In this document: in pieces, positions 2,955-15,196 of the stretch | Layout: each line of letters opens with the position of its first letter | Position numbering within the stretch: the first letter of the stretch is position 1 | Assembly (NCBI GenBank): GCA_022837185.1 | Contig: JALHJD010000038.1 | Coordinates: 3,518-18,713, forward strand | Origin: Desulfobacteraceae bacterium | GTDB lineage: Bacteria; Desulfobacterota; Desulfobulbia; Desulfobulbales; Desulfobulbaceae | Length of the DNA: 15,196 bases | Reading direction: 5' to 3' | The notes under the pieces: model-generated | Database searches by the model: none | Seen by the model: only the letters and a program-made list of their open reading frames with translations | Told to the model about the DNA's origin: nothing | Made by a program: the position numbers and the translations under genes

Positions 2955-3188
2955 CTATTGGCCATCCCCTCCCAGGGTCGGCTTGTACAGGCAGATTTCA
3001 TATGTTTTGCATATGCCCATCGCCATCCTGCTCGGCATGCCCAGGGATATCAGCCGGCAGTAAACATGGAGCGGATTGAACAGGTGCCGAATCCTGTCGA
3101 GAAAGTTTGAGTTGCTGTTCTGACCCATGGTTGACATCGCATTATCAATGAGTATCCGGCTCTTTGCGGACAGAAAATGAACATCCAT
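2955..3188 (-). CDS. Small hypothetical protein, 77 aa
   Basis: I do not recognise this protein with certainty. It has a polar N-terminus, then a segment that looks conserved, FLDRIRHLFNPLHVYCRL (about residues 29-46). A Gly/Met/Ala-rich stretch with two cysteines (C45, C60) and a basic-hydrophobic end (YEICLYKPTLGG) follow. There is no signal peptide and no confident membrane helix, although residues 44-67 are moderately hydrophobic. The start is uncertain: the ATG at 3188 lacks a clear ribosome binding site, and in-frame ATGs at 3137 and 3128 would yield shorter proteins starting just before the conserved-looking part. It lies 72 bp after the PGPGW-type gene on the same strand, behind the inverted repeats at 3196-3236. 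It may be the last operon gene or a separately regulated one. Confidence 0.55.
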   Translation of the reverse strand: MDVHFLSAKSRILIDNAMSTMGQNSNSNFLDRIRHLFNPLHVYCRLISLGMPSRMAMGICKTYEICLYKPTLGGDGQ

Positions 3189-3195
3189 TCAGAAC

Positions 3196-3236
3196 GTGGT
3201 TCTTACCACTCTCCGATTTCATCGGGAATGTGGTAA
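3196..3236. repeat. Nested and alternative inverted repeats between two minus-strand genes
   Basis: TTACCAC (3203-3209) and GTGGTAA (3230-3236) form a perfect 7-bp outer stem. Inside it CCGAT (3213-3217) and ATCGG (3221-3225) form a 5-bp stem with a 3-base loop. A third arm, GTGGT (3196-3200), can pair instead with ACCAC (3205-3209), so two mutually exclusive hairpins are possible. There is no T-tract on either strand. It lies just upstream of the 77-residue gene and could be an RNA switch-like leader, a processing site or an operator. Confidence 0.5.
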
Positions 3237-3260
3237 TTTGTCGCGCCGTCCCGGCTCCCC

Positions 3261-3665
3261 CTAAAACTGAAAGGGGGGCTTCTTTTCTTTCCGGCGCATC
3301 CAGTTGAGGAATCGCCTCACCCGGGGCCGGTGAACGAGGAAATCCACCACCTGGTGTTTTTTGGGGAAGTCCATGAAGGAAAGGCCGATGATCATGGTTA
3401 TTACGCCTTGTCCGGGCAGCACCAGCATGGCGGCCCCGGCCATGAGGAAGGCAAAACCGATGGCGTTCCTCGTCAGAAATATCATCTTCGCCAACAACGG
3501 GTGCCGTTGGTGGCGCTCCTCAACTTTCTCACGGTGCTGGATGAAATATTTGGCAGGCAGCCGGGCGATGATCCAGGGAACGGCGAGAAGACTGCCGATA
3601 AAGGTCGCCATGGACAACAGGCCGAGCCATTCAATGACAAGCAGCGTATGGCGGGACAGCTCCAT
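3261..3665 (-). CDS. PGPGW-type small inner-membrane protein
   Basis: A 134-residue integral membrane protein. One membrane segment is at about residues 8-33 (VIEWLGLLSMATFIGSLLAVPW). A second hydrophobic hairpin spans about 67-98 and contains LPGQGVITMIIGLSFMDFPKK, which matches the Pro-Gly-x-Gly turn and following 'Gl..ldfPgK' pattern of the PGPGW putative transmembrane family. The canonical trailing PGW is replaced by PGQG. The loop between (REKVEERHQRHPLL) and the C-terminus (RRFLNWMRRKEKK) are strongly basic and probably cytosolic. AGGAGG lies 8 bases before the start, inside the end of the prmA-like gene, and only 3 bp separate the two genes, so translational coupling is likely. The function of the family is unknown. 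Confidence 0.82.
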   Translation of the reverse strand: MELSRHTLLVIEWLGLLSMATFIGSLLAVPWIIARLPAKYFIQHREKVEERHQRHPLLAKMIFLTRNAIGFAFLMAGAAMLVLPGQGVITMIIGLSFMDFPKKHQVVDFLVHRPRVRRFLNWMRRKEKKPPFQF

Positions 3666-3668
3666 GGA

Positions 3669-4511
3669 CTATACCTCCTGCCGCCTGTTGCGCAGCAGCC
3701 ACAGCCGCCACATGTCCCTGGCGCCGCGCCGCAGCACCTGCAACCTGTCCGCCGGCAGGCCGGCAAGGAGTTCCCCTTCCATGGCGGCGATGAATCCCGA
3801 GATCATGTACATTTTTGCCCCCCAGAAACGCGGTTCGGCAAAAAGTCTGAGCAGCAGCCCTTTGTAGAGGTTGGCCACGACCAGATCGTACCCCCGCAGG
3901 TCAGGCAGCGCCTCGCCCGCATCAAGCTGGACGACGTCCACCCGCGAGCCGCAGGAGTTGAGTTCGACATTGCGCCTGGCTACCTTGCAGGCCAGGGGAT
4001 TGATATCCACCGCGGTCACATGTCCGGCGCCGAGCTTGGCGGCGGCAATTGCCAGGAGGCCGGTTCCGGTGCCCAGGTCGATGACCGAGCCGATGACCTC
4101 GTCCGATCCGGTCAGAACACGTTCCAGCGTTTCCAGGCACAGGCGGGTCGTGGCGTGAAAACCGCTGCCGAAAATAACGCTGGGATCAAGGATGATTTCT
4201 CCGGGACCGGCGGCCTGCCCCGCTGCCTCCCACACAGGCCGGACAACCAGGGACCCGGTGGCGAAGGACTCTATGGTGACGCCCGCCTCCCAGTCCCGAT
4301 AGTCAAGGTCGGCCCGGTAGATGATCCGGGCGCCGGTTGCGCCGCACAGGTCGTTGACCAGGTCATCCTTGGGACGGTGAAAAAACAGAATGGCCGCATC
4401 GTCTTCGACCCAGCAGCCGATGAAATCAGGATCCTCGACAGACGGTACGTCGCGCCGGTCAAGGTAATAGACGGCAAGCCGGCCGTATCTGGTGTGAGGA
4501 GGGCGCAGCAT
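3669..4511 (-). CDS. prmA: PrmA-type ribosomal protein L11 methyltransferase
   Basis: A 280-residue class I SAM-dependent methyltransferase of the PrmA family, which trimethylates ribosomal protein L11. The N-terminal part (1-105) is the substrate-recognition region, shorter and more divergent than in E. coli PrmA (293 aa). The family signature DPSVIFGSGFHATTRLCLE (109-127) is clear. The SAM-binding motif I VIDLGTGTGLLAIAAAKLGA (143-162) and the acidic VDINPLA (168-174) follow. The post-motif element is VANLYKGLL (212-220), where canonical PrmA has N-I-L. The gene begins 8 bp after the nitroreductase-like stop with no obvious ribosome binding site, so it probably relies on coupling. The family call is good. 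Because of the N-L-Y change, a related protein methyltransferase with another target cannot be excluded. Confidence 0.85.
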   Translation of the reverse strand: MLRPPHTRYGRLAVYYLDRRDVPSVEDPDFIGCWVEDDAAILFFHRPKDDLVNDLCGATGARIIYRADLDYRDWEAGVTIESFATGSLVVRPVWEAAGQAAGPGEIILDPSVIFGSGFHATTRLCLETLERVLTGSDEVIGSVIDLGTGTGLLAIAAAKLGAGHVTAVDINPLACKVARRNVELNSCGSRVDVVQLDAGEALPDLRGYDLVVANLYKGLLLRLFAEPRFWGAKMYMISGFIAAMEGELLAGLPADRLQVLRRGARDMWRLWLLRNRRQEV

Positions 4512-4519
4512 GGCGCAGG

Positions 4520-5122
4520 TTATTCGCCGGCCGCTTTGCCGGGGGAAAGAAGGAGATCGTTCAGCCGCCGTTTGGGCACATGGTGGACGCCCTTTTCGTC
4601 CCGCCAGTAGCGGACGGGGTCATCTCCTTCCCCTTCTTCCAGCACGACCCGTTCCGCCGGATAGCCGAGGGCCACGACCAGCAGAACCCGGTAGCGCTCT
4701 TCCACCTCCAGAACCTTTTTGATTGCCGGGGCCACGGAGGCGATCCGGCAGCCGTAGATTCCTTGTTCGGCGGCGCCAAGGAGCAGATTCTGGGTCGCGA
4801 TGCCGAGATCGACCTCGGCGTACTTTTCCGCTGTCCCGCTCCTGTCGCGGTCGAGCAGACAGACGATATAGGCCGCCGGTCGCTCCCCTTCCGCCGGCCC
4901 GGGCCAATCACGCAGGTAGCCGGCCCAGCCGAGGCAGGGAAACACAAGCTCGCGCAAACGGTGATCGGTGACGATCATGTATCGCAGCGGCTGCCTGTTG
5001 CCGGCCGAACCGCCCAGCCTGGCAAGATCGACCAGGTCGCGCAGGACTGCGTCGTCGATAAGCTGGTCCTCGCGGTATCTCCGGACCGTTCTCGTTGCTC
5101 TGATCAGATCAGCTATCATCAT
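4520..5122 (-). CDS. Nitroreductase-family flavoprotein
   Basis: A 200-residue nitroreductase-like protein, normally an FMN-dependent homodimeric NAD(P)H oxidoreductase. The N-terminal LIRATRTVRRYREDQ (6-20) is the phosphate/FMN-binding R-[ST]-x-R-x-[FY] region. Next are ARLGGSAGNRQPLRYMIV (34-51), the FMN-contacting 'sp.N.QP' segment, and YAEVDLGIATQNLLLGAAEQGIYGC (101-125), the family's central helix. The C-terminal part ALGYPAE (151-157) is the usual 'lGyp.e'. The start is ATG 5122 (a second ATG directly follows): AGGAA lies 6 bases upstream and the family homology begins here. A longer frame back to 5212 would add 30 residues unlike the family that only shadow the DUF748 gene. It overlaps the end of the DUF748 gene by 14 bp. 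The substrate is unknown. Confidence 0.9.
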   Translation of the reverse strand: MMIADLIRATRTVRRYREDQLIDDAVLRDLVDLARLGGSAGNRQPLRYMIVTDHRLRELVFPCLGWAGYLRDWPGPAEGERPAAYIVCLLDRDRSGTAEKYAEVDLGIATQNLLLGAAEQGIYGCRIASVAPAIKKVLEVEERYRVLLVVALGYPAERVVLEEGEGDDPVRYWRDEKGVHHVPKRRLNDLLLSPGKAAGE

Positions 5123-8100
5123 GAACCGTTCCTGTCGTTGCCGGGGTGATGAGGGGCTCCAGAACCAATTGCACCCGCGGCGGCCCTTGGCCTCCCGGTT
5201 CGGCGACGGCAATTCTGTCCGCTGGGATCGAAAGGGTGTCGACCAGGTAATCCCGGACGGCGAGCGCCCGCTTCCGTTCGAGCTCCCGCAGGGCTTCCTC
5301 GCTCACCTCCACCCGGACAAAGGGAAGCGGATCAAGGTCACGGGCCAGCTCGGCCGGATCGATCTCCTCGGTTTCCACCGTCGCTTTTCCCTCCCTGATC
5401 GCTGCCAGCCGCTCTATTTCCCTTTCCTCCAGCCGTACTCTTTCCAGGGCCCGCTTCCTGTTCTCTTCTTCCCGCCGCAGATCCTCCTCCTGCTGCAGGA
5501 CAGCCTGCAAGGCATCCGCATCGAGCTCATCGCTGACAACGGGCTGCAGCCGCAGCCGCAGAAAAGGCCGGCGGGCCAGCAGCTCTCCGTAGCCGGCCAG
5601 CACTTCCGGCTCATCGGGAAGTGCCGACCCGGGGCCAAAGGCAACATGATCGGGAAGTTCCAGTGCCGGCAGGTGCTCCCGGACCACGAGCAGCGGCGCT
5701 ATAGCGGCCCGGACCGCCTGATGCCGCAGCCGGTTCCGGAGCTGGTGGAAGAGAAATGTCCCTTCCCCGGCCGCGGGTGGATTTTCGCGCAACGCCATGG
5801 TCAGCTGCAGCCGGTCGTCAATGAACAGGGCCAGTGCCTGGAGCATGGGGGATTCCCTCTCCGGCGTCGCCCCGGAGATCCGCACGGTGGCGGCAATCTC
5901 GGATCCTTCCCCGGACCTGCTCAGGGTCTGGGTCCAGGCCGCGCCGGCTTCGTTGACCGCCAGGCCAAGCTCCTGACGGAAAAAATCCTCAAAGGGCGTC
6001 AGCCGGACATCCGTCGCTTCCAGGGAATAGCTGCGCACCTTTTCCGCTTCCGTTTCTCCGTCGATGGTAAACGCCCCGGATCCGTTCATTCGGCCCCGGA
6101 AGGAAAAAGGCATGACCTTCTCCCCCAGGGAAGCGATATCGCCGTTTATCCCGGTCAGTTCCGGCTGGTAGCCGGGCAGCAGGACGGGCCAGGGAGGAGT
6201 GAAGCGGCCGTCCTCGATGCTGACCTTGTCGACGGCTACCCCGGCGAAGGAGAGTTTGCCGGGATGGAAGAACCTGGCGAGGACATCTTCCCCCTCACTC
6301 AATCCAGCGGCAACCGCCGGCTTGCGCACCATGATCTCCCCCAGGTCGAGATGACGGGGGCTGGTCCGCAGCACAACCCTGTCCGAGGTTGCCAACTGCC
6401 ATTGCACCCGCGGACCGCCCTGTTCGCCGGCCTCCAGGTCGTTCATCCATACCTGGCCGGAAAATTCGCCGGCGGGCATGGCCACGTTGCCCTGTATATG
6501 CAGGGTCCCCTGTTTGACCGGCGGAACAACAACGGCGGACAGACAGGGATCGAACAGGCGGAAGTCGATATGCCGCAGATTGATCTCCAAACTGCCGGTC
6601 CGCCCCGCCGGGAAATACTGCCCGGCAACCTGTACTTCGCCCCGGGAGCCGATGGCGGCCGAAGCGGCTATGTTGTTCCCGCTGCCGCCGTCCATGAGAT
6701 GGTCGGCCTGCAGGTTGAAGCTGTCGACCGCCAGGTCGTTTTCCGCCCCGCAGAGGGGTGCCAGGAGGGGAGCGTGCAGCCTGGAGCCGCTGATGCGCAG
6801 ATTGTCGACGGTCAGATGCGGCTCCCGGTTTCCGCCGGCCCGGGAATCCGAATCCGGGGAAACGGCCGGCAGCGAAAAAATTTCACTGTTGACCAGTTCC
6901 AGGGTGCCGCAGCCGAAACGGCGGGCGGCTTCATCGATCTGAAAATTCTCGCAGCGCAGCCGCTCCCCGGACGCGATGGTCTTCGTCCCGGCCCTGAGGG
7001 AAAATTGCGCGACATCGAGTCGGCCTTCCCGCAACTGCATGGACGTGCCGGGCTCTTCTGCTCCGGCCCCGCCTCCCGCCATCACGTCAAAGGCAAAACT
7101 GATGCCGCCGATCCCCCGGTCCAGCCGAAGACCTGCTGCCGGCAGAAGATCCCCATGGCGCTGGAAATCGAAACGGTCGGCGGAAAACCTGCCTTTGCCC
7201 GCACCCCCCGGAAAAATTTCTCCCTCGGCGGACAATTTGGTTCCGCTGCCTTCCTGCCCGGCGACGGCACGGAAGGAGAACCGCGCCGGGCCGTTACCCT
7301 CCCGGCCCTTTGCCGCCTCCGGCGCTGCCTGCAGGGTGAACTCGACTTTGCTTAATGTTGTGACGGGCCCCGCCGAGGAAGTCGGGGGCAGTTGTATGGT
7401 GCCGTCCGCGGCATGCAGTTGCGTTACCAGGAACCTGTCCGGCGACAGCAGGAAGGCATCGATGATCCCGAACACCCCTCCGATTTGATGGTCCCCGGGC
7501 TCCTTCGCCTCATCGTGGAACACCAGGAGCGGCTTGGAGAAGCCGACATCATGCACAAGGAACCGGCCGGTCGAAGGGATGAATGCGAATGTGCAGTCGG
7601 CCCGCGGCGCCCCGAAAACCGGCCTGTCCTCCCTGTCGACAAACTGCAGGCCCGACACCGATGCCCGGCCGCCGACCACAAATCTCTCCCCCCCTTCCCT
7701 CTCCCGGGGAAACACGATTTTCAGCTCGACATCGGCCTGTCCGCCGCTCAATCTGAAATCGCCGGCCTGCCCGGGGACAGATACATAATCAAGGTAGCTG
7801 CCCAGTTCCACCTCGCTGCTGCGGAGGGAAAGACTTATTTCCGGTTTCCCTTCGCCGTTTGCCGTCCTGACAGCCTCGGCCCGCACCGGGCTGCCGTTGA
7901 CCAGGGCGCTGATTTTCGGCAACCGGTCGCTGCCGCCGCTTTTCCCTCCGCCGGGAGGCAGGTACAGTTCGAGTTGTTCCACCAGGTACTGCCTGTTGAT
8001 GAGATCATCCTGGAAAACAATTGTCCCGCCGCGGACATCAAGCTCTCCGGCTTCAAGCCAGGCCGGCCAGACGGATCCCGATTCCCTGTTGACCTGGGGG

Positions 8101-8714
8101 GCGAAAATATTGAGGACGTCGTTCAAGTCGGTGAAGCCGGCCGCGTCACGCCTGACCTGCAAGTCCAGTCCTTCCAGGGCGATCCTGTCGCAGAGCAGCT
8201 TCCCCCGGAAGATTCGTTCGAGTCCGAGCCGGCACCGGACCGCTTCGCAGGACAGGAAGTTTCCGCTCCTGCCCGTGCTCCCCCGCGGCACGCCGATGGT
8301 TACTTCCTCCAGATAAAGATCCAGGGTAAAGGGGGCAAAGACTATTCTTTTCACCGCCACCGGCCGTTCCAACCGTTCGGCCAGCATTCCTGCCATTGGT
8401 CCCTTTATCAGGGCCGGTACCAGAAAATATCCGCCGACGCCGTACAGCAGCACGCCGATCAGGGGCACGAGCAGCCAGCGGAGCGGCCTGAGCCGCACAG
8501 GCTGCCGCTGTGTCTTTTTCCTCCCGTACCGGCTGGGGTGGCGGGGAGCGGCATCGTCCTCCCCATTGGCTCTGTCAGGTTGCGGCCGCCGGACCGGGCG
8601 ATCCGGCGATTTCCGCTCCCCGGTCTCCCTGCCGGCCTCTTTTTCCTCACCTCCCTCCTCCGGTTCTTCCGGACCGGCCGTGATGGGAATCTCTCCAAAC
8701 CTGTCTATGGCCAT
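5109..8714 (-). CDS. Large DUF748/AsmA-like envelope protein
   Basis: A 1201-residue protein of the DUF748 family, part of the AsmA-like superfamily of long beta-rich proteins anchored in the inner membrane and reaching across the periplasm. Residues 1-77 form a low-complexity, charged cytosolic tail rich in E, P, R and G. One membrane helix follows (about 78-100, RWLLVPLIGVLLYGVGGYF), then the typical VKRIVFAPFTLDLYLEEVTIG (121-141) and GFTDLNDVL. The long middle is repetitive beta structure. Residues about 1070-1110 are a highly charged predicted helix or coiled coil. The end (about 1125-1190, with VSEEALRELERKRALAVRDYLV and IPADRIAV) resembles the OmpA-like tail of DUF748 proteins. AsmA-like relatives are implicated in lipid transport or outer-membrane homeostasis; the exact role here is unknown. 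It is the first gene of a minus-strand operon and divergent from cdaA. AAGGA lies about 12 bases before the ATG. Confidence 0.9.
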   Translation of the reverse strand: MAIDRFGEIPITAGPEEPEEGGEEKEAGRETGERKSPDRPVRRPQPDRANGEDDAAPRHPSRYGRKKTQRQPVRLRPLRWLLVPLIGVLLYGVGGYFLVPALIKGPMAGMLAERLERPVAVKRIVFAPFTLDLYLEEVTIGVPRGSTGRSGNFLSCEAVRCRLGLERIFRGKLLCDRIALEGLDLQVRRDAAGFTDLNDVLNIFAPQVNRESGSVWPAWLEAGELDVRGGTIVFQDDLINRQYLVEQLELYLPPGGGKSGGSDRLPKISALVNGSPVRAEAVRTANGEGKPEISLSLRSSEVELGSYLDYVSVPGQAGDFRLSGGQADVELKIVFPREREGGERFVVGGRASVSGLQFVDREDRPVFGAPRADCTFAFIPSTGRFLVHDVGFSKPLLVFHDEAKEPGDHQIGGVFGIIDAFLLSPDRFLVTQLHAADGTIQLPPTSSAGPVTTLSKVEFTLQAAPEAAKGREGNGPARFSFRAVAGQEGSGTKLSAEGEIFPGGAGKGRFSADRFDFQRHGDLLPAAGLRLDRGIGGISFAFDVMAGGGAGAEEPGTSMQLREGRLDVAQFSLRAGTKTIASGERLRCENFQIDEAARRFGCGTLELVNSEIFSLPAVSPDSDSRAGGNREPHLTVDNLRISGSRLHAPLLAPLCGAENDLAVDSFNLQADHLMDGGSGNNIAASAAIGSRGEVQVAGQYFPAGRTGSLEINLRHIDFRLFDPCLSAVVVPPVKQGTLHIQGNVAMPAGEFSGQVWMNDLEAGEQGGPRVQWQLATSDRVVLRTSPRHLDLGEIMVRKPAVAAGLSEGEDVLARFFHPGKLSFAGVAVDKVSIEDGRFTPPWPVLLPGYQPELTGINGDIASLGEKVMPFSFRGRMNGSGAFTIDGETEAEKVRSYSLEATDVRLTPFEDFFRQELGLAVNEAGAAWTQTLSRSGEGSEIAATVRISGATPERESPMLQALALFIDDRLQLTMALRENPPAAGEGTFLFHQLRNRLRHQAVRAAIAPLLVVREHLPALELPDHVAFGPGSALPDEPEVLAGYGELLARRPFLRLRLQPVVSDELDADALQAVLQQEEDLRREEENRKRALERVRLEEREIERLAAIREGKATVETEEIDPAELARDLDPLPFVRVEVSEEALRELERKRALAVRDYLVDTLSIPADRIAVAEPGGQGPPRVQLVLEPLITPATTGTVHDDS

Positions 8715-8824
8715 GGCGCGTTGCGTCCTTAAATTTTCGATTCATTTCCCCTTCACTTCGGGAAGCTGCGGGAAAAATTTATTTATATAACCATGTAAGG
8801 GAAAATTTGCCAGTCCCTCATTTT

Positions 8825-8854
8825 TTGATAATTACTTTTATTTTTCTGTTCAAT
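8825..8854 (+). promoter_or_regulatory. Weak candidate promoter for the cdaA operon
   Basis: In the AT-rich divergent spacer (8715-8925), TTGATA (8825-8830), an 18-base spacer and TTCAAT (8849-8854) give a 5/6 and 4/6 match to sigma70 boxes. An alternative extended -10 like element, TGCTAAATT, lies about 20 bases downstream without a good -35. On the minus strand TATAAA-like sequence near 8785 could serve the DUF748 gene, also without a good -35 box. Confidence 0.3.
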
Positions 8855-8925
8855 TGGAATTTAACATGCTAAATTTAAAGAAATAAATCACGTACATCAT
8901 TTTCTTTTGCCCGGCTTCCGCGACG

Positions 8926-9726
8926 ATGGTCAACTTCATCAGCACACTCAGATGGCAGGATGTGGTCGATATATTGATTGTCACAATCATCATATATCGC
9001 ATCATTCTGCTTATCAGGGGCACCAGGGCGGTGCAGATGCTCATCGGCATCGTCGTCATCACCATTATCTATTTCATTGCCCGGCAGCTCGACCTTCTCA
9101 CCCTGCACTGGATTCTCCGCACCTTCCTGAATTCCATCTTCCTCATCATCATCATTGTCTTCCAGCGCGACATCCGCCGGGTCCTGACCCAGGTGGGCAA
9201 GACACCCTTTCAGAAGCAGCAGGATATCGTCCTGCACGACCTGAATGAGATCGTCAAGGCGGTGAGTCATATGGCAAAAAAACGAATCGGGGCGCTGATC
9301 GTCATTGAACGGGAAACCGGACTCCGCGACTATATCGAATCCGCTCACTCCATCGACGCCAAGCTGACCAGGGAACTGCTGATATCGATCTTTCTGCCGA
9401 CCTCTCCCATTCATGACGGCGCGGTGGTCGTCTACAACGGCAGGATTCACTCAGCCGGCTGCCTCCTGCCCCTTTCCCAGAACGCCCACATCGCCAAACG
9501 GTACGGCACCAGGCACCGCGCCGCGCTGGGACTCTCCGAGGAAACCGACGCTGTCATCCTGGTGGTTTCCGAAGAGACCCAGGAAATATCGCTGGTGGAA
9601 AACGGCACCATCAAAACGTACCGGGACGAAGAGTCCGTGGCAAGCGCACTGCACAAAATATTCGTCAACAACATCTTGCCCGGCTCTTCGTGGAGGAGCT
9701 GGCTGGGCAAGTTGCACCGCACATGA
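8926..9726 (+). CDS. cdaA: Diadenylate cyclase CdaA
   Basis: A 266-residue membrane-bound diadenylate cyclase that makes the second messenger c-di-AMP from two ATP. Three N-terminal membrane helices (about 13-30, 37-53 and 59-79) precede a short linker and the DAC (DisA_N) domain (about 100-255). Both catalytic signatures are intact: DGA (164-166, in PIHDGAVVV) and RHR (in GTRHRAALGLSEETDAVILV, 194-213). The length matches CdaA (about 270). The ATG at 8926 is the only plausible start in frame, although it has no good ribosome binding site. The stop overlaps the cdaR start (ATGA), so the two are translationally coupled. The cdaA-cdaR-glmM order is the conserved arrangement in which CdaR and GlmM regulate the cyclase; operation here is inferred from synteny. 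Confidence 0.96.
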   Translation: MVNFISTLRWQDVVDILIVTIIIYRIILLIRGTRAVQMLIGIVVITIIYFIARQLDLLTLHWILRTFLNSIFLIIIIVFQRDIRRVLTQVGKTPFQKQQDIVLHDLNEIVKAVSHMAKKRIGALIVIERETGLRDYIESAHSIDAKLTRELLISIFLPTSPIHDGAVVVYNGRIHSAGCLLPLSQNAHIAKRYGTRHRAALGLSEETDAVILVVSEETQEISLVENGTIKTYRDEESVASALHKIFVNNILPGSSWRSWLGKLHRT

Positions 9727-10685
9727 AGAAAATACGATTATTCAGAAACAAGCCCGATAACTGGATGCTGAAGGTCGTTTCGCTTTGCCTGGCGGTCATG
9801 CTCTGGTATTTTGTCGTCGGCGAGGACCAGGTCGACATCAACATGCAGGTCCCCATCGAGATCATCAACCTTCCCAAAGATCTGATTATTTCCAATCAGT
9901 ACAAAAGTGAGATCGAGGTTTCGATCCGCGGTCCCCGCAGCATGATCCAGGATATCCGCAACCGGAACATCACCCGGCCGGTGGATCTTTCCACAGCCAA
10001 GCCCGGGACCATTGTGATCCGAAATGATGAGCAATCGGTTCCTTTTCCCAAGGGCGTCACCGTTCAAAGGCTCCAGCCGACCAACATTACCCTCCAACTC
10101 GATCAGCTCGTCCAGAAAAAATTTCCCATCAAGGCGGTCACCGAGGGAAAACCAGCCAAGGGCTACGAGCTTCAGCAGATACAACTCGATCCGGACCACC
10201 TCGTTATATCCGGCCCCAAGACGGTGCTGGAAAAGGGGTATGAAATTTCCACCTATGTCATCGATCTGGACGGCCTCAACCACACAACCACCATGCAGGT
10301 CAATCTCAATCTTGAACCCGACCTGTTCGAGCTTTTGGGGGAGACGGTGGTTTCAGCCCGGCTCGAGGTGCGGGAAGTGATGGAGGAGCGAACCGTCAAG
10401 AACATTCTTGTCAACGCCCGTGACGCGCAGGTGCCGGTTGCCGTCAAGCCGGACTCGGTAACGGTCAGGGCCGCCATTCCGGTCAACCTGATCAAGGAAA
10501 CACCGGAGCTTTCCATGCTCTTCCGCGCCTCGGCATCCGTAAAAGACGGGGAATGGCCGCAAACGGTAAAGGTGAACGTCACCGGCGTCGCCGTTCCCGG
10601 CCACGATCCGGTGAAAATCATCGAGGTCAAGCCTCCGGAAGTGGTCGTCACCGCTGCTGACGGTCCGAAAGACCTGGAAGAATAG
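9723..10685 (+). CDS. cdaR: CdaR / YbbR-domain cyclase regulator
   Basis: A 320-residue protein with one N-terminal membrane anchor (about 13-33, [18 protein letters not shown]) and an extracytoplasmic region of about three YbbR repeats (roughly 36-120, 124-212 and 215-308). Repeat hallmarks include [25 protein letters not shown] with VISGPK, and IPVNL. CdaR binds CdaA and modulates c-di-AMP synthesis in Firmicutes; the same role is inferred here. The start is ATG 9723, overlapping the cdaA stop by 4 bp. A GTG at 9690 would overlap cdaA by 37 bp, and its extra residues do not resemble the family. The number of repeats (Firmicute CdaR often has four) is lower, as is usual for Gram-negative members. 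The C-terminus ends in a short acidic tail without a second membrane helix. Confidence 0.93.
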
Positions 10686-10728
10686 CAAGGCGCAGCATCC
10701 ATCAATCATCTGCACAGAGTCGACCGCC

Positions 10729-12042
10729 ATGAATACAGGATCACGAAAACTGTTCGGGACCGACGGGGTCCGGGGCATTGCCAACATCCATCCGATGACC
10801 ACCGAAATCGCCATGCAGATCGGCCGGGCCATCGCCTTCCTGGTGAAAAACCAGAGCAGGGACCATCATATCGTCATCGGCAAGGACACCCGCCTGTCGG
10901 GCTATATGATCGAAAACGCCCTGGCCGCCGGTATTTGCTCCATGGGAGTCAACGTCCTGCTGGTGGGCCCGCTGCCGACGCCCGGCATCGCCTTTATCAC
11001 CACCTCCATGCGGGCCGATGCGGGCGTGGTGATCTCCGCCTCCCATAACCCCTTCCAGGACAACGGCATCAAGATATTCTCCGGCGACGGCTTCAAGCTG
11101 CCGGACGACATGGAAGCGGAAATCGAGGAACTGATCTTTTCCCAGAAAATGGAGGCCTTGCGGCCGGTGGCCGACGAAGTGGGCAAAGCGGCACGCATCG
11201 ATGACTCCAAGGGCCGCTACATTGTCTTCTTAAAGAATACGTTCCCGCGCAAATACACCCTGGACGATTTCCACATCGTGCTTGACTGCGCCCACGGGGC
11301 AACATACAAGGTGGCCCCCCATGTTTTTGCCGAACTGGGCGCCAGGGTCACCGCCATCGGGGTCGATCCGGACGGCAAGAATATCAACTCCCGCTGCGGC
11401 GCCCTGCATCCCGAAGTCATTGCCGCCAAGGTCAAAGAGGTCGGCGCCGACATAGGGCTTGCCCTGGACGGCGACCACATCATGGCCATCTGCGCCAGGG
11501 AGCTGCTTGCCGGCCGCAAGCTCAGGAAAAAAACGCTCGTGGCCACGGTGATGAGCAACATGGGCCTGGAAGAGGCGATGGGAAAAATGGGGGGCAAGCT
11601 GGTCCGCACCAGGGTCGGCGACCGGTACGTCGTTGAAGCCATGCGGAGCAAGGGGTACAATTTCGGCGGCGAGCAGTCCGGTCATCTGATCTTCCTCGAC
11701 CACAACACCACGGGAGACGGGACCCTGGCGGCCCTGCAGCTCCTGGCAGTGATGATCAAGAGAAACAGGCCCCTGTCCGAGTTGAGCAAAATCATGACGG
11801 CGTATCCCCAGGTCCTGGAAAACGTCCGCATGTCCGCCCAGGTTGCCCCGGATCAGATCCAGGGCTTTCCCCAGGCCCTGGCCAGGGCCGAACGGAAACT
11901 CGGCAGCCGGGGCAGGATACTGGTACGGCCCTCGGGCACCGAGCCGGTAATCCGGATCATGGTCGAGGGTGAAGACGACAAGGAGATCGGCTCCCTGGCC
12001 CTTGACCTCTGTGATGTGATCAGAAGGGCCGATAAAAGCTGA
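10729..12042 (+). CDS. glmM: Phosphoglucosamine mutase GlmM lacking the metal-binding loop
   Basis: A 437-residue GlmM, the alpha-D-phosphohexomutase that converts glucosamine-6-phosphate to glucosamine-1-phosphate for UDP-GlcNAc and peptidoglycan synthesis. Well conserved elements are [10 protein letters not shown] (7-16), the phosphoserine loop VISASHNP (101-108, S105 catalytic), the sugar-binding GGEQSGH and the C-terminal phosphate-binding [15 protein letters not shown]. The Mg-binding signature is broken. Residues 245-255 read [11 protein letters not shown], where homologues have ALDGDGDR, about 12 further residues, then a second DGD and the IMAIC-like strand. About 17 residues (51 bp) are absent, in frame, including the third aspartate and the Arg of DGDGDR. 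The total is shorter than the usual 445-455 residues. The rest reads as an intact protein under constraint. Mutase activity would be expected to be lost. It follows cdaR by 43 bp. Confidence 0.93.
11467..11475 (+). other. Probable in-frame deletion junction in glmM
   Basis: The bases GACGGCGAC encode the single remaining D247-G248-D249. In homologues this D-G-D occurs twice, once at the start of DGDGDR and again about 14 residues later before the conserved H/Q-I-M segment. Loss between two such short direct repeats would leave exactly one copy, as seen. The reading frame is preserved. Confidence 0.75.
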
Positions 12043-12074
12043 TGCCGGATTCAGCCAAGGGAGGGGAGAAGAGC

Positions 12075-12551
12075 ATGCGCAGCAGATACGTCTGGCTGAT
12101 CGTCCTGTCGCTCCTGGTGTATGGCGCGGGTCATGCAGGGGTAAACAATTACACCTGGAAGGATGCGCAGGGGGTCCTCAACATCACGGATTATCCGCCC
12201 CCCGAAGGGGTCGAAATCCTGGACATCCGTCCCGTTCCCCGGCAACGGGTGAAGCGTCCCGCCAGGCCGCCCGAGGCAGCCCGGGCCGCGGATGCGCAAA
12301 AAAGCCGGCGGCTCCTCGAAGGGCAGGCCGCCCGCTACCGGGCCGAGGAAGCCGCCGCCAGGGAGGATGCGGTCAGCCTCCTGCAGGAAGCGCAGCACCT
12401 GCGCTCACGAAGCGCGATCCGCAAGGTGAAAAGAAAATACCGCCGCTGGGCGGCGGTCATGGAAAGCGAGGCCCGGCAACTCGTCCACCGGGCGGACGCC
12501 CTGGCCAAAAAGGCCGAAAAACTGGAAATCGAGGCGGGCGCCCTGCTCTGA
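12075..12551 (+). CDS. Secreted DUF4124-domain coiled-coil protein
   Basis: A 158-residue exported protein. It begins with a signal peptide (MRSRYVWLIVLSLLVYGAGHA), with likely cleavage near residue 21. A DUF4124 motif follows, NNYTWKDAQGVLNITDYPPP (about 24-43), a short beta unit common in proteobacterial periplasmic proteins. From about residue 58 it is Ala-, Arg- and Glu-rich and predicted to form long helices or a coiled coil. The ATG at 12075 is preferred: a strong AGGGGAG ribosome binding site lies 6 bases upstream, and the signal peptide starts exactly there. An ATG at 12042, overlapping the glmM stop as TGATG, would prepend 11 polar residues to the signal peptide. It is probably the last gene of the cdaA operon. 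The function is unknown; a cell-envelope role is inferred from location and context. Confidence 0.82.
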   Translation: MRSRYVWLIVLSLLVYGAGHAGVNNYTWKDAQGVLNITDYPPPEGVEILDIRPVPRQRVKRPARPPEAARAADAQKSRRLLEGQAARYRAEEAAAREDAVSLLQEAQHLRSRSAIRKVKRKYRRWAAVMESEARQLVHRADALAKKAEKLEIEAGALL

Positions 12552-12553
12552 AC

Positions 12554-12569
12554 CCCGCATCATTGCGGG
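12554..12569. terminator. Possible weak bidirectional terminator hairpin
   Basis: A perfect 6-bp stem CCCGCA/TGCGGG with a TCAT loop lies 2 bp after the DUF4124 stop and 26 bp beyond the convergent aminotransferase stop. Next to it GGGGC/GCCCC (12577-12588) could form another stem. Neither is followed by a good T-tract, so termination is inferred from the convergent position only. Confidence 0.35.
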
Positions 12570-12594
12570 AAAGACAGGGGCCAGCCCCCGGGCT

Positions 12595-13776
12595 TCATGT
12601 CCTGGCCCTGGCCATTGCCCTTTTGAAGGCATCCGCCGACCGTTCAATCACCGAATCATCCACGCAAAAGGCCAGGCGGATGAAACCGGGGGCGCCGAAG
12701 CCCCGGCCCGGAACGGCCAGAATTTTTTCCTGCTGCAGAATGGTACAGAATTCCACGTCATCGCCGGGGACCTTGGGAAAAACGTAAAAGGCCCCTTTGG
12801 GTTTCGTATAGTCAAACCCGGCCGCGTCGAGGACGGCGCAGAATGTCTCCCTCCTGCGGGCGTACACCCCCGTGTCCACGGTCACGTCCTGCAGCTGCTC
12901 CACCACCCTCTGCATCAGCGCCGGCGCATTGACAAAACCGAGTATCCGGTTGGCCAGGGTCAGCGCATCGATCAGCAGCTGCTTCTGCTTGATCTCCGGA
13001 TGGACGGCCAGGTATCCGATCCGCTCGCCGGGCAGGGACAGGTCCTTGGAATAGGATGAAACGATGATCGAATTCCTTGAGGCCGCCATGACCGACGGCA
13101 CCTCGCCGCCGTCATAGACAATCTTGCGGTAGGGCTCATCGGCGACGAGGTAGATGGTCGTACAGAGCTTCTCGGAGAAACGCTCCAGCAGCCGGCCGAG
13201 CCGCCGGACCGATTCCCGGGAATATATCTGTCCGGTCGGATTGTTGGGACTGTTGATCAGGACAATCTTGGTTTTTTCATTCAGGGCCCTTTCAATTGCC
13301 CGCAGATCGAGGTTGAACTCGCTGTCAGTAGGGACAATTCTGCTCTTGCCGCCATGGTTGTCGATATAGAATTCATATTCCACAAAAAACGGGGAAAGGA
13401 TGATCACCTCGTCACCCGGATCGAGCAGGGCTTTCATCACCAGGTTGATGGCGCCGGCAGCGCCGCAGGTCATGAGCACTTCTCCCTGGTCGAGGTCGAT
13501 CCCCTGCTCGGCGGACAACCTCCTGGCCAGCGCCTCCCGAACATAGGGAAAGCCGCCGTTGGGCATATAGCCGTGGGCGCCGGGCTTGTCATCGGCAGCC
13601 AGTTCCCGCAGCACCTCGAAAAACCGCGGCGGCGGAGGCACGTTGGGATTGCCGAGGCTGAAGTCAAAGATGTTGTCCGGCCCGTACCGCGCCTTCATCT
13701 TGGCGCCCTCCTCGAACATTTTCCGGATCCAGGAGGATCGTTCGGCGAACTGCTGCATTTTTCTGGCAACGGTCAT
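12595..13776 (-). CDS. Class I/II PLP-dependent aminotransferase
   Basis: A 393-residue fold-type I aminotransferase of the aspartate/aromatic (AspC/Tyr) superfamily, transferring amino groups between amino acids and 2-oxoacids with pyridoxal phosphate. Diagnostic residues are in place: FDFSLGNPNV (37-46) at the substrate end, MTCGAAGAINLVMKALLDPGDEV, the conserved Asn in NSPNNPTG (175-182), DEPYRKIVYDG with D213 and Y216, the Schiff-base lysine K244 in SSYSKDLSLPGERIGY, and R367 in GFIRLAF, which binds the substrate carboxylate. The start is supported by AAGGAAA about 8 bases upstream. It follows the TerB-DnaJ gene by 55 bp of AT-rich sequence and converges with the cdaA operon. The substrate cannot be chosen from sequence; annotation as AspC would be a guess. 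Confidence 0.93.
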   Translation of the reverse strand: MTVARKMQQFAERSSWIRKMFEEGAKMKARYGPDNIFDFSLGNPNVPPPPRFFEVLRELAADDKPGAHGYMPNGGFPYVREALARRLSAEQGIDLDQGEVLMTCGAAGAINLVMKALLDPGDEVIILSPFFVEYEFYIDNHGGKSRIVPTDSEFNLDLRAIERALNEKTKIVLINSPNNPTGQIYSRESVRRLGRLLERFSEKLCTTIYLVADEPYRKIVYDGGEVPSVMAASRNSIIVSSYSKDLSLPGERIGYLAVHPEIKQKQLLIDALTLANRILGFVNAPALMQRVVEQLQDVTVDTGVYARRRETFCAVLDAAGFDYTKPKGAFYVFPKVPGDDVEFCTILQQEKILAVPGRGFGAPGFIRLAFCVDDSVIERSADAFKRAMARART

Positions 13777-13831
13777 AACTTATTTCCTTCCGATTAATAT
13801 TACCGAAAATCTACAGAAATACAGTAATAAA

Positions 13832-14671
13832 TCATACGTTATTAAATTTTTTCTTAAAGTAATCATAGGCCATGTTGATTTCCTTCATTTTTTCCTCGGC
13901 GACCCGCTTGAACTCCTCCCCGAGATGACTGACCTTGTCCGGGTGGTATTGCATGCTCAATTTTCTGTACGCTTTTTTAATCACTGTAAAATCCGCACCC
14001 GGTTCAAGGCCGAGAACGGCATAATACTGTTCCTCGGCCCCGGCGCCGGTGCCGTACTCGTGCTGCTGCCGGTACATGTACTTGGCTTCGATTGTCCGCT
14101 GATCATAGGCTGAAATATGGAGGAACGCAGCAATGGTCCTGGCCTGGCTGATTTCAGTTTCGGGCGGCGGCTGTTTGGTATGGATGATCTGATAAATCAG
14201 CTCGAGGAGAATCAGGCGGGGCTCATAGGCAAAAGAGTTCCTGAACTCAAGCAGCAGCTCATCCATGCTGAGCTCGGCATCCCGCGCTTCCTTGACCAGC
14301 TGCTTGACCCAGTACATCTGATCCTGGGTGTAGCGCAGGTTGTACTGAAAAAAATTGAGAATGGTCTGCAATTCGGCCTTGGTGAAATGGCCGTCGGCCT
14401 GGGCGATCCTGACCAGGATGTTGACCAGCAGATAGACGAAACGGTTGTGGGTTTCGGTCTGGGAGGCCTCATATTTGCTGATCCGGCTCTGCACATAATA
14501 GCTGAATCCCCAGAAAGCGGCCAGCAGGAGCAGGAAACCGAACACTCCGGCAAACAGGAGAAAACCGAAAAAATTCAGCAGGGCAGGAGCGCCGCCGGTG
14601 GCAAGGAGAATGAGGGCAACGACGAGCAAACAGCCCCCGCAGCCGGGTTGATTATGATACCTGTATTGCAT
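13832..14671 (-). CDS. Membrane TerB-DnaJ (DjlA-like) co-chaperone
   Basis: A 279-residue protein with the DjlA layout. Two N-terminal hydrophobic segments (about 13-30 and 33-57) are followed by a TerB-like helical domain (about 75-195, with [16 protein letters not shown] as the acidic signature) and a C-terminal J domain (214-277). The J domain carries HPD at 243-245 and the flanking [30 protein letters not shown] pattern (read in two parts, 213-242). J domains stimulate Hsp70 (DnaK) ATPase, and DjlA-type proteins recruit DnaK to the inner membrane. Differences from E. coli DjlA are two hydrophobic segments rather than one and no Gly/Gln-rich linker. The start at 14671 has no clear ribosome binding site. 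It lies 36 bp after ftsY and may be co-transcribed with it. The gene symbol djlA is avoided because orthology is not shown. Confidence 0.88.
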
Positions 14672-14707
14672 TGATGAACCAGGACAAGGTGGAACGTACG
14701 CGGCTCC

Positions 14708-15196
14708 CTATTCCTCGGGCGCGCTGCCGGCGGAGAAGTTGGCGAACAGGGCATCGACGAACTCCCGCGGATCGAAGTCGCGGAGGTCTTCAATTTTTTC
14801 GCCGATACCGATAAAGCGAACAGGGATTCCAATCTCCCGGCAAATATTGACAATAATCCCTCCCTTGGCGGTGCCGTCGAGCTTTGTCAGGGTCAAACCG
14901 GTTATTTCCACGGCCTCATTGAACAGTTTGGCCTGGGAAATACCGTTCTGACCGGTCGTCGCATCGATGATCAGCATTACCTCGTGCGGGGCCCCCGCCA
15001 GCTTCTTGCCGATCACCCGCTTGATCTTTTTCAGCTCTTCCATCAGGTTGACCTGGGTATGGAGCCGGCCGGCGGTATCGACGATGATGACATCGACGTT
15101 TCTGTGCAGGCCGTACTCGATGGCATCGTAGACAACCGCGGATGGATCGGCGCCCTGCTTCTGGGCGACTATGTCCACCCCGCAACGTTCGGCCCA
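14708..15196 (-). CDS. ftsY: Signal recognition particle receptor FtsY, C-terminal part (5' end off window)
   Basis: The last 162 residues of the FtsY SRP-receptor GTPase; the N-terminal and P-loop portions lie beyond base 15196. Visible NG-domain elements are [19 protein letters not shown] (the insertion/G2 region), the G3 motif DTAGRLHT followed by [17 protein letters not shown], the G4 motif [10 protein letters not shown] and the closing [20 protein letters not shown], which marks FtsY rather than Ffh (no C-terminal Met-rich M domain). FtsY docks the SRP-ribosome complex at the inner membrane for co-translational insertion. The gene runs into the TerB-DnaJ gene after 36 bp. No anomaly is seen in the visible part. 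Confidence 0.96.

Follow-up and report, generated by a model that had tools for sequence, protein, structure and literature searches.

GlmM is described as essential in papers on Staphylococcus aureus and Bacillus subtilis (PMC6368335, PMC6797236), and, in the sections of the B. subtilis paper available to us, PgcA with raised phosphoglucosamine mutase activity did not replace GlmM in its essential role(s) (PMC6797236). The available portions of two reports further describe direct inhibition of the diadenylate cyclase CdaA/DacA by GlmM in B. subtilis and S. aureus (PMC8573169, PMC6368335). In B. subtilis, domain 2 of GlmM contacts CdaA, and the acidic interface residues given in that excerpt are D151, E154 and D194/D195, both of the last two numbers being printed (PMC8573169); S. 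aureus DacA was reported, in the part of the study at hand, to be unaffected by the GlmM proteins of Escherichia coli and Pseudomonas aeruginosa (PMC6368335). An account of the PGM1 paralogs, as excerpted, finds three metal-ligand aspartates in all of the sequences compared, and distinguishes serine, sugar-binding and phosphate-binding regions in phosphohexomutases (PMC5570346). The family also includes a protein without enzymatic activity, PGM5, which the passages available to us treat as separate from the closely related, active PGM1 (PMC7761743).

Here we examine a glmM gene that appears to have lost its metal-binding loop. The window, that is, the whole stretch of DNA analysed, is 15,196 nucleotides long and comes from a draft genome assigned to a Desulfobacteraceae bacterium (GenBank assembly GCA_022837185.1, contig JALHJD010000038.1, positions 3,518 to 18,713). 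The features that matter for the argument are as follows.

8926–9726, + strand: cdaA, encoding a diadenylate cyclase that has both the DGA and the RHR motif (TIGR00159 score 235.8 bits, cut-off 188.8)
9690–10685, + strand: ybbR-like gene between cdaA and glmM, start codon provisional (Pfam YbbR, E 1.9e-19)
10729–12042, + strand: glmM, encoding a phosphoglucosamine mutase of 437 aa that lacks 17 internal residues (TIGR01455 and Pfam)
11465–11475, + strand: remaining copy of an 11-bp direct repeat, TGGACGGCGAC, marking the deletion junction, with 51 bp missing (alignment with the congener G004)

The locus resembles the known clusters in gene order, with cdaA and then ybbR directly upstream of glmM and all three on the + strand; we take the DGA and RHR motifs of cdaA to be catalytic. 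The glmM frame is open from the ATG at 10729 to the TGA at 12042, and its 437-residue product scores 556.8 bits against TIGR01455, above the curated GlmM cut-off of 447.55, and matches all four Pfam domains, PGM_PMM I, II, III and IV. SASHNP, GGEQSGH and RPSGTEP, which we assign to the catalytic serine, sugar-binding and phosphate-binding regions, are all present in the translation. Unlike the GlmM proteins of the relatives examined, however, the window protein has no metal-binding loop with three aspartates of the DGDGDR type. The initial annotation had read an altered junction at residues 245–255 in an otherwise intact frame, and this observation, made well from the raw sequence, is correct; the junction spans bases 11461–11493, ending three bases past the 11490 originally given.

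The extent of the loss was defined by alignment with G004, a congener and, judged by glmM, the nearest relative among the genomes searched. G004 aligns to window positions 3059–15196 at 90.2% identity, and relative to it the window glmM lacks exactly 51 bases, from 11465. In G004 a perfect copy of the 11-mer TGGACGGCGAC stands on either side of the missing stretch; the window retains one copy, at 11465–11475, which is the sole one on its + strand. The proposed loss of 17 residues, or 51 bp, between short direct repeats encoding DGD was thus exact in length, by alignment with G004 and with other relatives, and right as to the repeats. In relatives the DGDGDR loop is followed by eleven residues and then a second DGD, whereas the window protein has a single DGD. 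Because one DGD remains, the lost stretch can be read in two equivalent ways with the same resulting sequence: either the third loop aspartate, the arginine and everything onward through the second DGD were lost, or the whole DGDGDR loop was lost together with the residues that precede the second DGD. No more than two of the loop's three aspartates are left, and the arginine after the loop and the segment that follows it are gone. Given that three aspartate ligands occur in all of the PGM1 paralogs compared (PMC5570346), the deleted GlmM should be catalytically inactive. Structure models of the deleted and loop-bearing forms (mean pLDDT 40.1 and 44.0) were too poor for use, probably because their alignments held just 24 close homologues.

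The loop is kept throughout the relatives. Among 29 aligned relatives (the loci with a GlmM frame, L009–L037, of which L022 has its C-terminal end cut), 26 carry DGDGDR and three DGDADR, with the loop columns ungapped in all of them; counting missing residues against these homologues gave 17, with the gap in the window sequence alone. DGD[G/A]DR was likewise kept in all 80 genome_contigs loci, a set that overlaps with the 29, represents the best 80 of 339 stretches encoding a relative, and may lack entries from the genome of the window or from one very close to it. Because this search started from the loop-bearing protein P0002 (described below), with one of six peptide patterns extending into the lost segment, the set is biased towards loop-bearing loci. 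In seven of the 80 the second DGD is GGD or NGD, with the spacing unchanged. The 29 relatives without a gap and the 80 loci with the loop together argue that the loop loss is not a chance reading, and they provide no case of a relative naturally lacking the loop, which the initial annotation had named as a possible refutation. The DGDADR variant occurs in intact GlmMs at L031, L032 and L035, from three genomes of genus g9, and in seven rows of the 80 genome_contigs loci, which overlap with the 29-relative set.

Searching with the deleted protein gave the same picture from the other side. In 50 of 57 genomes the glmM match breaks at the loop; among the matches listed, only the window's own glmM match is uninterrupted, and the six genomes in which a full-length glmM match is absent (G005, G008, G012, G015, G027 and G040) are uninformative on the loop. 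The junction pattern itself was matched in one of the seven genomes of the genus, the window's own.

We also searched about 5.8 billion proteins with the deleted form, scoring the 8,000 candidates that shared most words with it; 7,993 matched and the best 120 were listed. The closest of these 120 after the window's own protein is P0002, a 454-aa protein identical to the window GlmM at 437 of 437 aligned residues and differing from it by one 17-residue insertion, DGDGDRLIVCDERGRIV, which supplies the three-aspartate loop. P0002 has a single member sequence, recorded for 15 contigs of up to 86,124 bp, although these contigs may not be mutually independent or may derive from another site. The deleted form, P0001, has a single contig listed, whose 18,713 bp equal the length of the window's contig C22. 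Among the best 120 of the 7,993 matches, 118 have the standard loop and spacing, P0001 lacks the loop, and P0102 reads DGDGER with the loop in place, the one database protein to do so. With the loop-bearing twin listed on 15 contigs, the deletion probably reflects either faulty assembly or a single isolated event, and not a new kind of protein.

The remainder of the gene speaks against general decay, as had been claimed at the outset. From residue 8 onward and with the loop left out, window and G004 glmM differ by 51 synonymous and four non-synonymous codons, and only one of the four can be assigned to the window's branch. These counts, together with the lack of any difference from P0002 outside the loop, rule out general gene decay and indicate that glmM was under constraint up to the time of the deletion, supposing that it took place. 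The rest of the roughly 12.2-kb G004 alignment has ten other gap openings, of 1–19 bases, which by eye against the window's open reading frames fall in intergenic stretches or close to predicted gene boundaries. Conservation along the alignment is lowest, at 83% in one 500-base step, within a 1,201-residue open reading frame on the − strand (5109–8714), upstream of the cdaA cluster.

The repeat that bounds the missing stretch is long for this position. Eight of 109 relative rows, both G004 rows among them, have 11 bp as their longest in-register repeat between the sites, and the other 101 reach 9 bp at most, the rows being drawn from overlapping sets with G004 in both. This places the lineage among those with the longest repeat available here for slippage or template switching, with the repeat inferred from G004 and not from the window's own unbroken form, P0002 being known as protein only.

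The window's genome is a draft of 535 contigs, 88.94% complete and 7.52% contaminated. The search it had seemed worth making for a further mutase returned two other phosphohexomutase genes, on contigs C40 and C446, and no second GlmM in this 88.94%-complete genome, a result that the incompleteness and fragmentation keep from being proof of absence. The C40 mutase is 28% identical to the query and has the loop DGDFDR; the C446 mutase has DPDGDR, and just short pieces of it match the query. Because a second mutase at about 26–33% identity is found in at least 40 of the 50 relatives with glmM, C40 does not look like a special substitute; these second mutases are of a distant kind, likened to C40 by their identity to the query.

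Other genes of the pathway were also inspected. The best GlmS match in the window's genome (C249, 7343–7663) spans model positions 1–106 and runs into the end of the contig (7,664), which illustrates how fragmented the assembly is. GlmU (C477, 19061–20026) matches only about positions 2–325 of 452, and does so in five of five genomes, the others being the congeners G001, G002, G004 and G006. Since the same match, ending at 322–325 of 452, occurs in four of four congeners, we rejected the idea that the short GlmU points to pathway damage or a bad assembly; it suggests that GlmU in this genus may be short, without part of its C-terminal domain, which we take to be the acetyltransferase. In G012, a genome of the same family (contig C1, one 2.77-Mb contig, 99% complete), GlmM was not found: the best TIGR01455 match has E 1.8e-7 and falls in a 656-aa frame that is also the sole PF02878 match above cut-off. 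The regions inspected there were L150 (550000–560000) and L152 near 19062; on C1 the cdaA-ybbR pair is followed, where glmM would be expected, by a frame that by eye is DsbA/thioredoxin-like. MurA and a short GlmU are present in G012.

The initial annotation had offered three explanations for the loss: an assembly artefact, a recent inactivating deletion with another GlmM elsewhere, and a pseudo-mutase retained for its binding to CdaA. The first is now the best supported of the three, with the loop-bearing form on 15 contigs and the deleted form on one. An artefact is the most likely origin, rather than a real recent deletion, and we think it probable, if well short of certain, that the 51-bp loss arose in vitro or in silico and is absent from the living population. 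On this reading the uncultured bacterium, a relative of Desulfobulbaceae, has a cdaA-ybbR-glmM cluster with a normal, catalytic glmM, and its living population would make the 454-residue loop-bearing form; the loss could have come about through a rare template-switched or slipped read, or because the assembler took a path over the short repeat in a bin that was mixed or of low depth. That no second GlmM was found in the 88.94%-complete genome, and that GlmM is described as essential in the cited species, would make such a loss hard to tolerate. Against an artefact, the rest of the G004 alignment has no clear sign of poor assembly, and assemblers usually work with k-mers longer than 11 bp, so that a repeat of this size does not readily account for a pure assembler collapse. 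Short direct repeats are sites of both slippage and template switching, and slippage at repeats takes place in living cells too. That slippage deleted the stretch for real and very recently, in a single lineage or in some minority of the cells, and left GlmM inactive, is a possibility we take seriously without thinking it probable; the cells would be dying, rescued by another mutase, or a minority variant picked by the assembler. Slippage classically removes exactly what lies between direct repeats and leaves one copy, as here with 11 bp, a repeat of this length is uncommon among the relative rows, and the genome has the C40 and C446 genes. Yet GlmM is described as essential in S. aureus and B. 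subtilis in the accounts available (PMC6368335, PMC6797236), both mutases are distant from it, a distant second mutase is too common among relatives to mark a special substitute, and the loop-bearing protein is listed on 15 contigs. The recent-deletion part of the second explanation keeps this lesser probability, while the additional GlmM it called for was not found in the genome as assembled. A literature search on in-frame glmM deletion between direct repeats in metagenome-assembled genomes brought up a single paper, on B. subtilis as a cell factory, which matched the topic in part.

Two explanations would give the shortened protein a function, and both fare poorly. The pseudo-mutase proposal, in which the deletion is maintained for GlmM's structural role, inhibition of CdaA lowering c-di-AMP, draws on the position of cdaA and ybbR directly upstream and on the inhibition described, in the excerpts at hand, for B. 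subtilis and S. aureus (PMC8573169, PMC6368335). It also accords with the location of the published interface residues, which by hand mapping lie outside the deleted stretch. On the same hand alignment to chain 7ojr_A, which we take to be B. subtilis GlmM, the interface places in the window protein are R156, D159 and E202 (taking D195), so that two of the three are acidic and one is an arginine, the latter being, if anything, a point against the proposal. The deletion, moreover, is shared by none of the 29 relatives, 119 other listed proteins or 80 loci (overlapping sets), the remaining sequence is identical to the loop-bearing form, with no adapted lineage seen, and no second GlmM that could supply GlcN-1-P was found in the genome. 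In the part of the S. aureus work available, neither the E. coli nor the P. aeruginosa GlmM had an inhibitory effect on DacA of S. aureus (PMC6368335). We accordingly regard the pseudo-mutase as extremely improbable. A working mutase, in which the remaining DGD gives two metal ligands and something else the third, is scarcely better placed and we consider it very unlikely: the remaining DGD does occupy the position of loop aspartates one and two, and the serine motif is intact, as are those for sugar and phosphate binding, but three aspartate ligands occur in all PGM1 paralogs compared in the excerpted account (PMC5570346) against at most two here, the arginine and following segment are gone, and a shorter loop was seen in no relative examined.

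Set against described systems, the window protein is like the GlmMs of cdaA-ybbR-glmM clusters in gene order, in its four Pfam domains and three motifs, and in the identity of its 437 remaining residues to a recorded loop-bearing form; it differs in the 17 missing residues and in having at most two of the three metal-ligand aspartates. If real, the deleted form would resemble PGM5 as a family protein without enzymatic activity. PGM5, however, is separate from the active PGM1 in the passages available (PMC7761743), whereas the only GlmM found in the window's genome is the affected one, on a single contig.

There is a very slim chance that the deletion is real in a living lineage in which GlmM serves only as a partner of CdaA and a generalist phosphomannomutase/phosphoglucomutase supplies GlcN-1-P; were this true, the catalytic role of GlmM would be split from its c-di-AMP regulatory role in nature. 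The case also carries a warning: when a draft genome shows an in-frame gap bounded by short direct repeats, the gap can pass for an active site lost under selection, and a check of other assemblies for the same protein brings this to light.
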